Below, piece after piece: positions 11,159 to 36,590 of a DNA stretch of 38,120 bases. Below the pieces are notes generated by a model. The model worked only from the letters and a program-made list of their open reading frames with translations. It made no database searches and was not told where the DNA came from. How positions within the stretch are numbered: position 1 is the stretch's first letter; each line of letters opens with the position of its first letter. The stretch is from Candidatus Kerfeldbacteria bacterium (GTDB taxonomy: Bacteria > Patescibacteriota > Patescibacteriia > SBBC01). Location: contig JACQPY010000018.1 in the NCBI GenBank assembly GCA_016207275.1, forward strand, positions 87,960 to 126,079, written 5' to 3'. Made by a program: the position numbers and the translations under genes.

Positions 11159-11427
11159 GACCGCGTGGGGATACGCGGCAACGGGCGTCGTCGTCCGGTC
11201 CGACCGGTCAGGTCCTCAAGTTTTCCAATCTTGCGGAGGTACTCTTTGCGCTGCCGAATCTCGCGGCGACGAATCGCGTCCTCGCGGACCTCACGCTTTG
11301 TCTTTGGCGGCTCGTAGAACCGCGCTCGCTTGGCCCGCAGCAGTACGCCACTCTGCTGGACCCGTTTCGTGAACCGTCGGAGCAAGCTTTCAACTGATTC
11401 GCCCTCTTTACGTCGAACTTCAACCAC
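11155..11427 (-). CDS. rpsU: 30S ribosomal protein S21 (start taken as GTG after the SD; the track extends to an ATG at 11448)
   Basis: VVEVRRKEGESVESLLRRFTKRVQQSGVLLRAKRARFYEPPKTKREVREDAIRR; SD AAGGAGGTGAT just upstream of the GTG. Confidence 0.88.
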   Translation of the reverse strand: MVEVRRKEGESVESLLRRFTKRVQQSGVLLRAKRARFYEPPKTKREVREDAIRRREIRQRKEYLRKIGKLEDLTGRTGRRRPLPRIPTRS

Positions 11428-11496
11428 GCGTATCACCTCCTTGAGCATGCTGGACTGTCACTCGTGACATTGGTGTCAGGTAAAAAATGTGTGGTG

Positions 11497-11551: not shown

Positions 11552-11625
11552 CGACCCCCCCTATGCCTGTCGGCATTTCCCCTCCTCAATTGAGGAGGGG
11601 AAACCGCGAAGCGGAGGGGTGGTCG
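11552..11625. repeat. REP/MITE-like palindromic element with a 28-bp perfect palindrome
   Basis: TTTCCCCTCCTCAA|TTGAGGAGGGGAAA (11576..11603), outer arms CGACCCCCCCT / AGGGGTGGTCG with one mismatch. Confidence 0.7.
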
Positions 11626-14512: not shown

Positions 14513-16048
14513 TTGACGGTTCTGACGACCAGCCGCTATACTGGCGAGGACGGCACGAAACACATGCCGATTCAGAGTTTGCACGCTCCCCAGGAACGAC
14601 ACCCTGAGCCGGCGTCGGCGCAGTTAACGCCACGGCGGAGGTCTTGGTTTTGGTGGAAAATTGGCGGCGCCGTCGTCCTCGTCCTGCTGGTCTTTATTGG
14701 CCTGGTCGGCTATCGCCTCCTGGCCGCGGTCAACACCACCGTCGACGGTAACCGGCGGGTGTCGGTTTTAGAACAGCTCGGCCACATCGTCGCCAAACGG
14801 GACGCCCAGCTTAAAGGTGAAGGCGAGGATCGCATCAACGTCCTGCTTCTCGGTATCGGCGGACCAGGCCACGAAGGTCCGCTCCTGACTGACACTATTA
14901 TCGTCGCCAGCTTCAAACCTTCGTCCGGGCAGGTGACCTTGATTTCAATTCCGCGTGACCTGGCGGTCGAAATTCCCCGGTATGGCATCCGCAAAATCAA
15001 CAACGCCAATGCCTTCGGCCAGGAGCTGAGCTACCCGGGTGGCGGTGAACAACTGACCGCTGATATCGTCGCCCGCGTGACCGGCCTAACGATGCACTAC
15101 TTTGGACGAATCGACTTCGCCGGTTTTACCAAGATCGTCGATGACCTCGGCGGCGTGACGCTCACCGTGGAACGGAATTTTGCTGACCGCGAGTACCCGA
15201 CTGAGGATTTCGGCTACCAAACCATCAGCTTCAGGGCCGGCCAGCAAATGATGGATGGTGACACCGCCCTCAAGTTCGTTCGGTCACGCCACGGCAGCAA
15301 CGGCGAGGGCTCAGACTTCGCCCGCAGCCGCCGGCAGCAGCTCGTTCTGCAAGCGCTCCGGGAAGAAATCTTTTCACTCGGCACCATCATCAACCCGGTC
15401 AGAATCGGCAACATCCTCAGTTCACTCGGCATCCACACCCGGACGAATATGGAGATTTGGGAACTTTTGCGCCTCGCCAAGCTCTTACGCGAATCGCCGA
15501 CGAACTCAGTTACCAGCCACGTCATCGACAGCAGCCCGAACGGACTACTCAATGTTGCGACCGGCCAGGATGGGGCCTTCTTGTTGGTTCCCCGAGACGG
15601 AACATTCGCCGCGGTTCGAGCCTTCTGCGCCAACATCTTTGTCGTCGCTCGCTACCGCGAGGAACAGGCCCGAATCTTGGTTCGAGACGGCAGCGGTCGA
15701 AACGGCACCGCAAAAACAGTCGCCACCAATCTTACCTCGCTCGGTTTTTCCAATGTGACGGTTGATCAGCACCGCTCGAATGAACGAATGGCGAACAGCC
15801 AGCTGATTGATTATACCAATGGCCGTAAACCGTACACACTCAGCGGTCTAGCCTCATACCTTGGCCTGGCTGGCACCGGCACTGGTTCGCCCCTACTCAA
15901 CCCCGGTCTGGTACCAACCATTCTCAACGGCAACGACAACGTCAACCGAGCCGTCCTCCCGGCCCAACCGCCGGACACCGACATCCTGTTCGTCATTGGC
16001 ACCGACTACCAGCCGGCCCTAACCGCCAAACGAACTTCGTCGACATGA
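14513..16048 (+). CDS. LCP (LytR-CpsA-Psr) family protein with C-terminal LytR_C-like domain (true start may be about 14564)
   Basis: RINVLLLGIGGPGHEGPLLTDTIIVASFKPSSGQVTLISIPRDLAVEI...FAGFTKIVDDLGGVTL...ALKFVRSRHGSNGEGSDFARSRRQQLVLQAL; C-term RILVRDGSGRNGTAKTVATNLTSLGFSNV. Confidence 0.93.
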   Translation: MTVLTTSRYTGEDGTKHMPIQSLHAPQERHPEPASAQLTPRRRSWFWWKIGGAVVLVLLVFIGLVGYRLLAAVNTTVDGNRRVSVLEQLGHIVAKRDAQLKGEGEDRINVLLLGIGGPGHEGPLLTDTIIVASFKPSSGQVTLISIPRDLAVEIPRYGIRKINNANAFGQELSYPGGGEQLTADIVARVTGLTMHYFGRIDFAGFTKIVDDLGGVTLTVERNFADREYPTEDFGYQTISFRAGQQMMDGDTALKFVRSRHGSNGEGSDFARSRRQQLVLQALREEIFSLGTIINPVRIGNILSSLGIHTRTNMEIWELLRLAKLLRESPTNSVTSHVIDSSPNGLLNVATGQDGAFLLVPRDGTFAAVRAFCANIFVVARYREEQARILVRDGSGRNGTAKTVATNLTSLGFSNVTVDQHRSNERMANSQLIDYTNGRKPYTLSGLASYLGLAGTGTGSPLLNPGLVPTILNGNDNVNRAVLPAQPPDTDILFVIGTDYQPALTAKRTSST

Positions 16049-16596
16049 ATTCGCGTCTCGTCGTCGGCCTCGGCAATCCCGGGCAGCAGTATGAACGCAC
16101 GCGGCACAACCTTGGCTGGCGGGTGGTCAACGCGGTTCGAGACCAGCTTGCCGGCGCGATCGACTGGCGCGGTGAGGGGAATTCGCAGGTCGCTCACACC
16201 GCTGGTCAGCCCCGCATCTTCTTGCTCAAGCCGCAAACGTTCATGAACGAAAGTGGTCAGCCGGTCGCTCGCTTCGTCAACTTCTACAAAATTCCTTTTG
16301 ACCGTCTCTGGGTCATCCACGATGACGTCGACCTCCCCTTTGGAGAACTCCGACCCGCTCTTGACCGCGGCGCCGCCGGCCACCAGGGCGTCGAATCAGT
16401 CATTCAAGCACTCGGTTCAAAAGCCTTTCACCGGCTGCGCCTCGGCGTCGGCAGCAACCGCAACCATAACCTGGCGGCTGAGGACTATGTGCTGCAAAAC
16501 TTCACGGCCGAGGAAGAGGCGGCCTTGGCCGGGCCAACCGGGATCATCAGCCAAGCGGCTGACCATATCCTGGCCGAACTTAAAGCAACTTCTTAA
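16045..16596 (+). CDS. pth: Peptidyl-tRNA hydrolase
   Basis: RLVVGLGNPGQQYERTRHNLGWRVV...LLKPQTFMNESGQPV...WVIHDDVDLPFGELR...GAAGHQGVESVIQALGS; ATGA overlap with upstream gene. Confidence 0.96.
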   Translation: MNSRLVVGLGNPGQQYERTRHNLGWRVVNAVRDQLAGAIDWRGEGNSQVAHTAGQPRIFLLKPQTFMNESGQPVARFVNFYKIPFDRLWVIHDDVDLPFGELRPALDRGAAGHQGVESVIQALGSKAFHRLRLGVGSNRNHNLAAEDYVLQNFTAEEEAALAGPTGIISQAADHILAELKATS

Positions 16597-16637
16597 CAAA
16601 AAAGTGGGCGCGCCGTGCGAACCAGTGATGCGCGCCC
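16595..16637 (-). terminator. Rho-independent-type terminator of the candidate ncRNA
   Basis: Minus strand GGGCGCG catcactggttcgcacgg CGCGCCC ACTTTTTTGTT. Confidence 0.6.
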
Positions 16638-17019
16638 CGTCAGTCTGCCACATGGCTCATGCCGCCATGCCAGACTGGGGAATAGATCAGGGGAACCCGA
16701 TACTTGCAGGAGTCGCCTTAGCCACAGCCCGCGGAGCCTACTCAGACGGCACTCTCCCAGCCGTGTCGGGCTCCCAACCAACAGGACCAGTAACTGTTAA
16801 CGTGTGATCTTCTGTTCCAGTTGGTCAAACGTCAAATGTCACCAGTCAAACTTCTCTGCCACCCACGGATCTACTTACAAGCGTAAGATGTCTGCCGAAA
16901 ACGACACACACCTTAACTTGTGGCTACTGGGAAAGCTTAGGAGGGGTCGCCCTCTGTTCGCCGCTTGCAAGTAGGACGGTGGGTACCAAAGATTGCCGCG
17001 AAACGAGCGCTTAAAGCCA
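16597..17019 (-). ncRNA. Candidate unassigned structured noncoding RNA of about 0.42 kb
   Basis: No credible CDS; minus-strand promoter-like pair, multiple hairpins with minus-strand-specific G-U pairing, terminal GC hairpin plus ACTTTTTTGTT. Confidence 0.5.
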
Positions 17020-17026
17020 AGATGAC

Positions 17027-17055
17027 ACCTTAGCAAAGACCGACAAGCCTGTCAA
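17027..17055 (-). promoter_or_regulatory. Sigma70-like promoter driving the candidate ncRNA
   Basis: Minus strand TTGACA (17055..17050)-17 nt-TAAGGT (17032..17027). Confidence 0.5.
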
Positions 17056-17092
17056 GCCCCGCCACCCTACCAGCCAGCAACCTTCTCAAAAA

Positions 17093-20000
17093 ATGGCGCA
17101 ATCGAGTAAACGAGTTACGAAAAATCCGCCCGCCCGGGCCATGAAAACCACCGATTTATTCGCCGATCGGTCACACCAGCCGGCCTTTTTAACTGCCGAG
17201 CTCAGTGGCCAGCGACGACTTACCGGCGTGGGACCGCTGGCAGCCAAAACTTTCCTGATCTCCCGCTGGCGGAACAACGATCGGCTGCGACAGCGAGTCT
17301 GGCTAACAGCTGACGACGCTGAGGCTGAGGTGGTCATCGAGCAGCTCCGTTTCTGGAGCGGCGGCGAGCTGCAGCCCCTGCTGCTGGACGGCCCGAACCT
17401 CCCCCGACTCCTGCGACGATTGGTCGTCGGCGCGCCGGTGCTGGTGGTGGCGAGCGTCAGCTCATTCGAGCGTTCAATTCTCCCGCGGCCGGCCTTTAGG
17501 GACTTAATCCTGACGCTGCGGGTCGGGGAAACCCGCCGGCCGGCCGAACTCAGTCAAGCATTGACTCGGGTTGGGTACTCATTCGAGACGGCGGTCGACG
17601 GCGAGGGGTCGTTCGCCCGCCGCGGTGGCATCGTCGACGTCTTCCCGGTTGACGCGGCTCGTCCAGTCCGTCTCGAATTCGAGGGAAATACACTGGTCAC
17701 CATCTCACCGCTCAACGGTCCGAAGCCAATCACGGCCGTTACCGAGCTAACTGTCACACCGGCGACATTTCCGACCACTTCCGGCGCGACCCTGTTCTCG
17801 TATCTCAACGGCGAGCAGGTACTGTTCGTGCTGTCCGATCCTGACCAGCTGGCGACGGTGGCGCCGCGGTGGGAACAGTGGTCAACCGTCCTCGCTCCCT
17901 ACCAGGCGATCATCTTCGAAACCTTCAGTGACGAAACTACCCAACAGCTCGATTTTCACCACGCCCCCTTCTACCACCGTGATTTTGAAGCCTTGGCTCA
18001 GGACCTGACGCACTACCGCAACGAGGGCTGGGATGTGGCGATCGCGACCGAACAATCGAACGAACTCAGTCAGCTGTTTGAGCACCTGCGCCTCGCGCCG
18101 CCGCCAACCGTGCCGGTCAAAAATGCAAACAACATACTGAGTGGTTTTAGCGCTCCCCGGTACAAGTTCCTGTTTTTGACCGACCAAGAGATTTTTGGTC
18201 GCCGAGAAACACGCGGCCAAGCGACCGGCAAACGTAAAGTCGACCTGGCCTTCTTAGCCGAGCTCAAAGCCGGCGATTACATCACCCACCTTGACCATGG
18301 CATCGGTCGTTTCTTGGGCATGACCAAGCAGCAGGTCGACGGCCACGAGCGCGAATACTTTACCCTTGAGTACGCCGGCGGCGATAAGCTATTCGTCCCG
18401 GTCGAAGCAGCTGACAAGGTTTCGAAGTACATCGGCGTGGCCAACCCCAAGCTCCACCGGTTGTCCGGCTCGAACTGGTACCAGCTCACCCGCAAAATCA
18501 AAGAAGAAACCATGGCCTTGGCCCAGGAACTGCTCAAACTCTACGCCAAACGGGCCACGGCCAAAGCCATTCCCTTCGGTGGAACAACGGACGAAGACCG
18601 GCAACTGGCCGTTTCTTTTCCCTACGAGGAAACCAAAGACCAGCGGGTGGCCATCGAGGAGGTCTTCAACGACTTAGCGAAAAACACGCCGATGGACCGG
18701 CTCGTCTGCGGTGATGTTGGCTTCGGTAAAACCGAGGTCGCCATCCGCGCCGCGGTTCGCACCGCGGTTCGCGGTGCCCAGGTGGCCATCCTGTCGCCAA
18801 CGACCATCCTGACCCAGCAGCACTACGATACGTTTGTCAACCGCTTGCACGGCTTGTCGCTCAACGTTGAGTTGCTGTCGCGTTTCAAGAGCGAGAAAGA
18901 GCAGCGCGCGACCATCGCTCGGTTAGCCGCTGGTGGCGTTGACATCGTCGTCGGTACCCACCGCCTCCTCTCCAAAGACATTACCTTCAAGAACCTCGGT
19001 CTGATCATTATTGACGAAGAGCAGCGCTTTGGCGTCAAGGACAAAGAAAAACTCAAGGAGCTGCGGCAGCAAGCCCACGTCCTGACCTTAACCGCCACCC
19101 CGATCCCGCGGACGCTCAACCTGGCCCTGTCCGGTATTCGCGATGTCTCGATCATAGAAACGCCGCCCGAGGGCCGCTTGCCCATCGAGACCATTATTCA
19201 GCCGTATGCTGAGGACGTAATCAGCACCGCGATCCGCAAAGAAATTAGCCGTGGCGGCCAAATCTACTACGTCTACAACAACGTGGAAACTATCGAGCTG
19301 ACGCTCCAGCGGTTACAAAAGTTAGTCCCTGAGGCGAGCTACGCCGTGGCCCACGGCCAAATGGACGAACACGAGTTGTCGAGGGTGATGGCTGACTTCG
19401 ACACCGGTAAGATCCAAGTGCTGGTCTGCTCGACCATCATCGAGAACGGTCTCGACCTGCCGAACGTCAACACCTTGATCGTCGAGAATGCCGGTCGCTT
19501 CGGCCTGGCCCAACTCTACCAGCTCCGCGGCCGAATCGGCCGCGGTTCGCGGCAGGCCTACGCCTACTTTCTCTACCAGTCAACCAAGCTGACCGGCGGT
19601 CCGAAGAAACGACTCCAGGCCTTGCACGAGGCCCGCGACCTCGGCGCCGGTTTCCAGCTGGCCCTCCGCGACCTGGAAATCCGCGGCACCGGCAACATTC
19701 TCGGCAAGGAACAACACGGCCAGGTCGCCGCCATTGGTCTCAACCTCTATACCCGGCTACTGTCCCAAGCGATTGAAGAACTCAAGACTGGCATCAAGCA
19801 AGAAGCACTGCGCGATATCATCATCGACTTGCCGCTCGACATTGGTATCCCCAAGACGCTGGTGTCGGCTGAACCGAAGCGGCTCAAGCTCTACCAGGAG
19901 ATGGCGAACGTCATCAGCATTGACGAGCTGCGCGAGTTTAAAAAGAAAACTTTTGGCGAAAAAGACATCCCGCAGTCCTTACACAACCTGTTCGATTTAC

Positions 20001-20308
20001 TGGAAATCCGTTTGCTCGCTCAAAAAACGGCCATCACCAGCATCACCGTAACCAAGGCGACGGTCGAGGGTGTCACGAACCAGAAACTAGCGATTGAGTT
20101 TTTCGACATGATCACGCCGAAAATGATTGAACGGCTGATTACTAAAAATCCGAAGTGGGACTTCACCACCAAGCTGGTCAAGATCGATTTTGCCGAACTT
20201 GGGCCGCGGTGGTTGCCGCAACTCAAGGCCTATGTTAGGCTGTTCACGCGGGAACCAGATCGACTAAAAGCTGAGGAAACAACCGAAGTTGCCGCACCGG
20301 CAACGTAG
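17093..20308 (+). CDS. mfd: Transcription-repair coupling factor Mfd
   Basis: 1071 aa; CarD-like LKAGDYITHLDHGIGRFLGM, helicase motifs VCGDVGFGKTEVAIRAA, LSPTTILTQQHY, IIDEEQRFGVKDKEKLKEL, LTLTATPIPRTLNLALSGIRDVS. Confidence 0.97.
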   Translation: MAQSSKRVTKNPPARAMKTTDLFADRSHQPAFLTAELSGQRRLTGVGPLAAKTFLISRWRNNDRLRQRVWLTADDAEAEVVIEQLRFWSGGELQPLLLDGPNLPRLLRRLVVGAPVLVVASVSSFERSILPRPAFRDLILTLRVGETRRPAELSQALTRVGYSFETAVDGEGSFARRGGIVDVFPVDAARPVRLEFEGNTLVTISPLNGPKPITAVTELTVTPATFPTTSGATLFSYLNGEQVLFVLSDPDQLATVAPRWEQWSTVLAPYQAIIFETFSDETTQQLDFHHAPFYHRDFEALAQDLTHYRNEGWDVAIATEQSNELSQLFEHLRLAPPPTVPVKNANNILSGFSAPRYKFLFLTDQEIFGRRETRGQATGKRKVDLAFLAELKAGDYITHLDHGIGRFLGMTKQQVDGHEREYFTLEYAGGDKLFVPVEAADKVSKYIGVANPKLHRLSGSNWYQLTRKIKEETMALAQELLKLYAKRATAKAIPFGGTTDEDRQLAVSFPYEETKDQRVAIEEVFNDLAKNTPMDRLVCGDVGFGKTEVAIRAAVRTAVRGAQVAILSPTTILTQQHYDTFVNRLHGLSLNVELLSRFKSEKEQRATIARLAAGGVDIVVGTHRLLSKDITFKNLGLIIIDEEQRFGVKDKEKLKELRQQAHVLTLTATPIPRTLNLALSGIRDVSIIETPPEGRLPIETIIQPYAEDVISTAIRKEISRGGQIYYVYNNVETIELTLQRLQKLVPEASYAVAHGQMDEHELSRVMADFDTGKIQVLVCSTIIENGLDLPNVNTLIVENAGRFGLAQLYQLRGRIGRGSRQAYAYFLYQSTKLTGGPKKRLQALHEARDLGAGFQLALRDLEIRGTGNILGKEQHGQVAAIGLNLYTRLLSQAIEELKTGIKQEALRDIIIDLPLDIGIPKTLVSAEPKRLKLYQEMANVISIDELREFKKKTFGEKDIPQSLHNLFDLLEIRLLAQKTAITSITVTKATVEGVTNQKLAIEFFDMITPKMIERLITKNPKWDFTTKLVKIDFAELGPRWLPQLKAYVRLFTREPDRLKAEETTEVAAPAT

Positions 20309-30285: not shown

Positions 30286-30372
30286 GCCGCGGTGGCGGAA
30301 TTGGCAGACGCACAGGACTCAAAATCCTGCGATCGCAAGGTCATGAGAGTTCGATTCTCTCCCGCGGCACCA
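30286..30372 (+). tRNA. tRNA-Leu (anticodon CAA), CCA encoded
   Basis: GCCGCGG...CAGGACTCAAAATCCTG...GAGAGTTCGATTCTCTCCCGCGGCACCA, long variable arm. Confidence 0.95.
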
Positions 30373-36181: not shown

Positions 36182-36263
36182 GGGCGGGTGGTGGAACTGG
36201 CATACACGTACGACTCAAAATCGTATGCCGAAAGGCATGAGGGTTCGACTCCCTCCCCGCCCA
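36182..36263 (+). tRNA. tRNA-Leu (anticodon CAA), second gene, CCA not encoded
   Basis: GGGCGGGTGGTGGAACTGGCATACACGTACGACTCAAAATCGTATGCCGAAAGGCATGAGGGTTCGACTCCCTCCCCGCCCA. Confidence 0.93.
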
Positions 36264-36590
36264 CTAATCGGTTCGATTCCCTGCCCCGTACTTGCGCAGC
36301 GTATAGTACGGGGCGACCGGCGGCACCACTTGTGCGGGGTTCCCGTAAGGGATTAAGGGTTCGACCTGCCCCGAGCAGCGTCGAGAGGCTCCCTTCTCTG
36401 GCACCAGGAAGGTCCGGGACTCCGGCCCTCCAGAGGCGGGCAGGCCGGGCGCGCCCGCCGGCCGAAGCTTGCCACGAAGCTCCGCTCACGTGAACGCCCC
36501 GGGAGAGCACTCTCCCAGGGCAGTTGTTATTTCGCGGGCGGTGCGCAACCAGGACTCGCAAAATAGCAAAAGAAATGATAGGCTTGCTGT

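Follow-up and report, generated by a model that had tools for sequence, protein, structure and literature searches.

The alpha-r14/cuckoo small RNAs (NfeR1) of Alphaproteobacteria carry an ultraconserved anti-Shine–Dalgarno (anti-SD) motif, CCUCCUCCC, in hairpin loops whose stems differ, and are predicted to pair with the ribosome-binding sites of mRNAs (PMC10746234). OLE RNA of Bacillota, which is ~600 nt long and highly structured, contains in its P6 region a mimic of the 16S rRNA 3' tail (5'-CCUCCU) and is linked to bS21 (PMC12054373). In Bacteroidota, an extended Shine–Dalgarno (SD) sequence of rpsU marks autoregulation of bS21 (PMC9976891). This circuit operates by anti-SD occlusion and involves protein and rRNA only; an RNA partner has not been described.

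Here we describe a new class of RNA, found in Patescibacteria and carrying an anti-SD loop, for which conservation, strand, secondary structure and invariance of the loop are shown. The novelty lies in the RNA family itself, its presumed mode of action having analogues. As in the alpha-r14/cuckoo RNAs, the anti-SD motif resides in an unpaired hairpin loop (102 of 102 sense matches). In contrast to the three simple CCUCCUCCC hairpins of those RNAs, a single anti-SD arm is attached to a three-way junction with an additional helix, P3; the flanks of the motif and the phylum are different, and there is no similarity at the level of Rfam. By analogy, we regard the alpha-r14/cuckoo RNAs as the nearest counterparts for the pairing mode. 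With OLE RNA the new class shares extensive structure, the CCUCCU mimic and links to bS21, but the mimic of OLE RNA is base-paired in a stem whereas that of the Patescibacteria RNA is in a loop. As in the Bacteroidota circuit (PMC9976891), rpsU of these genomes stands out by an exceptionally strong SD from genes whose SDs are weak. Patescibacteria form a vast radiation whose members are mostly uncultured and have very small genomes. The RNA class provides genome annotators with a searchable model, and its invariant loop is a testable handle on the control of translation initiation in minimal cells, a topic which is almost blank.

The window, i.e. the whole stretch of DNA that was analysed, comprises 38,120 nucleotides from a Candidatus Kerfeldbacteria genome of 0.95 Mb (~92% complete). 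The RNA gene occupies the gap between the end of pth (16596) and the start of mfd (17093), both assigned by Pfam and both on the plus strand. The features of the locus are:

16045..16596, plus strand: pth (Pfam PF01195, E 5e-52), convergent and conserved neighbour of the RNA gene
16597..16640, minus strand: terminator hairpin GGGCGCGC/GCGCGCCC with T-run (from the sequence; L002 has a comparable hairpin in this position)
16641..16859, minus strand: lineage-specific 3' part with GGAGCC/GGCTCC and CAGTCTG-CATGGC hairpins (by blastn)
16860..16988, minus strand: conserved core RNA of ~129 nt (blastn core and full-length covariance model matches in class and phylum)
16597..17020, minus strand: inferred full transcript of ~0.42 kb, core plus 3' part (promoter-to-terminator span, no transcript data)
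17027..17055, minus strand: promoter TTGACA-N17-TAAGGT with extended -10 (TTGC) (from the sequence and conservation in homologs)
17093..20308, plus strand: mfd (Pfam TRCF domains), divergent upstream neighbour, replaced by dprA in other lineages

A blastn comparison with the four relatives from the same family revealed a core of ~130 nt common to all of them and always located between pth and mfd; beyond it, no unique match was found among the family members. A first covariance model, built from five sequences, gave full-length matches in 84 of the 381 genomes of the class, and a second one, built from 50 sequences, matched 148 of 381. In a phylum-wide draw the second model was positive for 42 of 380 genomes, other classes included. 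These numbers are probably lower bounds as filter settings and E-values are rough. The RNA normally occurs once per genome, and many genomes of the class have no match to the models. Reading the pth surroundings of 19 genomes without a match or with a weak one (G009) uncovered divergent versions in G005, G034, G036 and G046.

The core pattern was also scanned over 84,980 species, which yielded 33 loci. Eighteen of these pass the covariance model and have titles of the Patescibacteria type or of unclassified bacteria, among them Kerfeldbacteria, Kuenenbacteria, Doudnabacteria and Parcubacteria. The remaining 15, mostly from Bacteroidota, fail the model and were rejected; those read in detail (Bacteroidota and one labelled Euryarchaeota) look like a coding segment of a MoxR-like ATPase, as judged from the translation. 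The RNA recurs over much of the Patescibacteria, in many families and several classes, and usually at the same gene junction. In 72 of 100 homologous loci, pth is located downstream on the opposite strand, and the divergent upstream gene is dprA in 50 and mfd in 22 of the 100 (neighbours were named by Pfam for the window and by protein clusters for the other loci). The RNA often overlaps or touches the 3' end of pth, and in the window its terminator abuts the pth stop codon; some loci are away from pth. A same-strand gene downstream of the RNA is mostly absent.

The elements of the core, all on the minus strand, are:

16963..16985, minus strand: 5' strand of helix P1, pairing with 16882-16860
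16860..16882, minus strand: 3' strand of P1, on the same basis
16960..16962, minus strand: 5' strand of P1c (GGC), pairing with 16924-16922 (GCC)
16922..16924, minus strand: 3' strand of P1c (GCC), on the same basis
16957..16959, minus strand: GAA side of a loop-E-like internal loop (GAA in 38 of 50 sequences)
16925..16928, minus strand: AGUA side of the same internal loop (AGUA in 35 of 50)
16949..16954, minus strand: 5' strand of P2 (GAGGGC), pairing with 16936-16931; the arms vary jointly across homologs
16931..16936, minus strand: 3' strand of P2 (GCUUUC), on the same basis
16939..16944, minus strand: CCUCCU anti-SD loop, within ACCCCUCCUAA (102 of 102 sense matches)
16902..16915, minus strand: 5' strand of helix P3, pairing with 16897-16884
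16884..16897, minus strand: 3' strand of P3, on the same basis

At a three-way junction, P1 meets P3 and an arm composed of P1c, the internal loop and P2. In the alignment of 50 sequences, 89.4% of the cells are paired and two-sided changes are seen in 44 of the 46 pairs. P1 (~22 bp) accounts for 22 column pairs, 20 of them with two-sided changes (94% paired), and in P3 all 14 pairs have such changes. P1c, which is 97% paired, alternates between GGC/GCC, GGU/ACC and GAC/GUC. The covariation score is 0.69 for the proposed structure compared with 0.27 in shuffles and 0.11–0.16 with the partners slid, and P1, P1c and P3 are recovered by RNAalifold without a supplied structure. GAA and AGUA occur together in exact form in 26 of 50 sequences. 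That this internal loop is loop-E-like is only a suggestion, since the three-dimensional motif has not been shown.

Folding energies relative to shuffled sequences favour the minus strand (z -4.35) over the plus strand (z -1.19). Among the strand-informative cells of the whole family, G-U outnumber A-C 310 to 38, which identifies the minus strand as the RNA strand. The original prediction had argued for this strand from a G-U pair opposed to an A-C mismatch in a single helix, and the argument thus holds family-wide. It had further proposed a 13-bp helix extended by CCCAC/GTGGG, which is confirmed by heavy covariation, and a hairpin GAGGG-CGAC-CCCTC, which is not. The latter helix, GAGGG/CCCTC, was also part of our first model (R1) and was dropped when the 50-sequence alignment gave another partner strand: the conserved hairpin is GAGGGC/GCUUUC and exposes CCCCUCCU. 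The anti-SD loop had been missed.

The loop of the P2 hairpin is CCCCUCCU, or (A)CCCCUCCU(A) when written with its flanks, and contains CCUCCU, the core of the 16S rRNA 3' tail (anti-SD). The hexamer was found in all 102 sense matches, with ~2.6 expected by shuffling; the single table entry lacking it is an antisense artefact. Across homologs, the P2 arms change freely and the loop stays constant. The 5' strand of P2, which the original prediction had paired with the segment of the loop, has as its conserved partner across homologs the strand that follows the loop. P2 has a mean helix length of 5.4 bp compared with 3.6 in shuffled sequences and 3.0 for the sequestering alternative; the exposed-loop helix is present in 31 of 50 sequences, and 7 of 50 have a sequestering helix with a length of at least 5. 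The mean predicted unpaired probability is 0.78 for the CCUCCU loop and 0.32 for the whole core, and it is 0.5 or less for the loop in 20 of 100 sequences. In terms of energy, sequestration of the loop has a slight edge when the sequence of the window itself is folded (-58.0 versus -56.3 kcal/mol).

Reduced versions of the RNA exist as well. Tandem second copies at L036:1503-1604, L046:1642-1743 and L068:2896-2990 (minus strand) have no P3 but retain both the stem and the CCUCCU loop, as do minimal P3-less versions beside pth in L177 (one) and L179 (two). The loop therefore looks like the functional end of the molecule.

Searches against known families did not identify the RNA. At the gathering threshold of Rfam 15, the only cmscan matches over the window plus 40 homologous loci were tRNAs, and no match up to E 10 was obtained in region 16500-17150. 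The OLE family model was not matched by the RNA. Both tmRNA and RNase P RNA are ruled out at this locus, the genome having them at G000:C16:36069-36482 and G000:C15:27952-28451, respectively. SRP RNA (RF00169) and 6S RNA (RF00013) gave no match anywhere in this ~92% complete genome. The original prediction had likewise noted no signatures of tmRNA, RNase P RNA or SRP RNA. Nor does the RNA have the consistent position upstream of co-directed genes that would be expected of a riboswitch or leader, pth being convergent in 72 of 100 loci and co-directed ORFs occurring in some lineages only. No description of this RNA was found in the literature searched, mostly outside subscription journals.

Discrete transcription of the RNA gene from its own promoter is inferred from sequence alone, transcript data being unavailable. 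In the window, the -10 box has only 3 of 6 consensus matches, because of which a simple promoter/terminator scanner run on the window did not list the promoter. Nevertheless, neither TTGACA (the -35 hexamer) nor the extended TTGCTA varies among the five family members, and the sigma-70 promoters of homologs elsewhere are near-perfect. A promoter with at most 2 mismatches to the 12-nt consensus precedes 61% of the cores; Markov controls reach 4% and the reverse strand 14%. The same scanner did not flag the GC hairpin and T-run at 16640-16597, owing to its long loop. In many loci, an intrinsic terminator was seen by eye directly after the core. The RNA gene is thus a stand-alone unit in most cases.

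The 3' part is not conserved. Past query position 200, blastn found no match in any relative except for a dispersed TTTGAC repeat, so that ~290 nt of the ~0.42-kb unit are lineage-specific and lie outside the ~130-nt core. The helices from ~16780 to 16600 belong to this part and are not conserved beyond close relatives; the CATGGC hairpin was seen by eye also in L002. As to the original prediction, its main claim, an undescribed structured non-coding RNA on the minus strand, is borne out by the lack of an Rfam match, the strong covariation, the phylum-wide recurrence and the conserved promoters. No credible CDS was found in the pth-mfd gap, as had been claimed. The promoter TTGACA-17 nt-TAAGGT at 17055..17027 is present as described, and the GC hairpin with T-run stands as a sequence feature. 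The proposed ~0.42-kb unit holds in part, only the three-way-junction core being conserved, and the GGAGCC/GGCTCC and CAGTCTG-CATGGC helices listed with it fall into the lineage-specific 3' part. Short TTTGAC-rich repeats, often in inverted pairs (GTTTGAC...GTCAAAC), are dispersed in the source genome and in G003; one is inside the 3' part (window ~16855-16820, minus strand), others are in L006-L010.

We propose that the RNA is a trans-acting anti-SD mimic which acts at SD-dependent initiation. In this view, a stand-alone gene with its own promoter would make a stable RNA, the CCUCCU of the P2 loop would pair in trans with AGGAGG SD sequences, and the RNA would compete with the ribosome and lower initiation on SD-bearing mRNAs. 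This mechanism is inferred, without transcript or interaction data, and may as easily prove wrong as right. Hfq is absent from all 95 relatives searched, and the rigid scaffold would therefore have to act without this chaperone. Extra copies of the RNA fit a dose effect in trans. In these loci, AGGAGG is found 67 times at 4–9 nt before ATG and 18–20 times before other triplets (~3.5-fold), and AGGAGGG/AGGAGGGG is hardly enriched before ATG. The limitation of the pairing to 6 bp counts against the mechanism, as do the energetically favoured sequestration of the loop in the window, its low unpaired probability in 20 of 100 sequences and the many genomes of the class without a match. The conserved loop flanks (CC before, A after) add no pairing with the rpsU SD.

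The gene for bS21, with its exceptionally long SD, would be a candidate target:

11263..11427, minus strand: rpsU (bS21; PF01165), member of the same-strand block

In the window, rpsU has a GTG start and a perfect SD of 11 nt, AAGGAGGTGAT, at 11442..11432. Comparing the window and loci L189-L228, we found an rpsU SD run of 9–11 nt in 14 of 21 RNA-positive genomes, neighbouring genes averaging ~4; the start codon is GTG or TTG in most of the RNA-positive genomes. Runs of at least 9 nt also occur in 6 of 20 RNA-negative Patescibacteria, and runs of at least 8 nt in 11 of 20. SD strength is thus not supported as a marker specific for RNA-positive genomes, and provides context for the link to rpsU rather than proof. 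In 28 of the 34 genomes with RNA and rpsU on one contig, rpsU is on the same strand 5–16 kb downstream of the RNA (counted within 20 kb). A perfect palindrome, TTTCCCCTCCTCAATTGAGGAGGGGAAA, was noticed upstream of rpsU (window 11576-11603); it holds CCCCTCCT, which is also in the RNA loop, plus the complement.

The main rival explanation, possible but less likely, is a protein decoy. By mimicking the 16S 3' tail, the loop would bind bS21 or further factors of the 30S platform or 16S end, and would tune ribosome composition or sense free bS21, in line with the proposal made for P6 of OLE RNA. It ranks first because the CCUCCU mimic region of OLE, where 5'-CCUCCU is paired to an SD-like strand, binds bS21 (PMC12054373). 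The P2 5' strand of Kerfeldbacteria can likewise pair with CCUCC, 28 of 34 genomes have rpsU downstream in the same orientation, and the arm, being structured and loop-E-like, would be well suited to binding a protein. Against this, the SD–anti-SD-like duplex is not conserved (sequestering helix in 7 of 50 sequences, exposed in 31), bS21 is also present in RNA-negative genomes, and the synteny of RNA and rpsU may reflect block inheritance. Moreover, OLE mutants with altered mimic but retained pairing still bound bS21 (PMC12054373).

A cis-acting leader, in which P1 and P3 would be the sensor and the loop would mask a downstream gene's SD, is unlikely. In its favour, nine loci (L052, L058, L073, L082, L084, L088, L090, L097 and L100) have a small ORF that starts 23–49 nt past the core and is preceded by an AGGAG(G) SD. 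However, the next downstream gene is the convergent pth in most loci, including the window, with a terminator or gap in between, and the downstream ORFs of the various lineages are not one family. Separately, we note that the post-core ORFs of L082, L088, L090, L097 and L100 are small probable lipoprotein genes, some of them mutually similar.

There is very little to support a divergent SRP RNA or 6S RNA. The lack of RF00169 and RF00013 matches in the ~92% complete genome, the single copy and the strong promoter would fit, but there is no Rfam match up to E 10, the sequence has no loop of the SRP GGAAGCAGC type, and the three-way junction with its invariant CCUCCU loop is not the open bubble of 6S RNA; for a divergent housekeeping RNA in general, tmRNA and RNase P RNA have been located elsewhere in the genome. 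A role at the DNA or terminator level, as bidirectional terminator or antisense element for the pth 3' end, could draw on convergence with pth in 72 of 100 loci, often with overlapping or touching 3' ends, but is highly improbable in view of the 310 to 38 asymmetry of G-U and A-C, the RNA's own promoters, its invariant loop and the loci away from pth.

If the trans-acting anti-SD mimic is the correct reading, the RNA probably tunes the start of protein synthesis in minimal cells. Alongside OLE RNA and the cuckoo sRNAs, it would then be a further and independent example of a non-coding RNA that borrows the mRNA-binding sequence of the ribosome. A bolder version, which we put forward tentatively, is that the RNA would be ancient within the Patescibacteria radiation and near-housekeeping in status, would mimic the 16S 3' tail in trans and, together with the extended-SD rpsU of the same block, might form a circuit controlling bS21 content and the use of the ribosomal anti-SD.

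Elsewhere in the window, two tRNA-Leu genes, both with CAA anticodon, are less than 6 kb apart (30286-30372 and 36182-36264).
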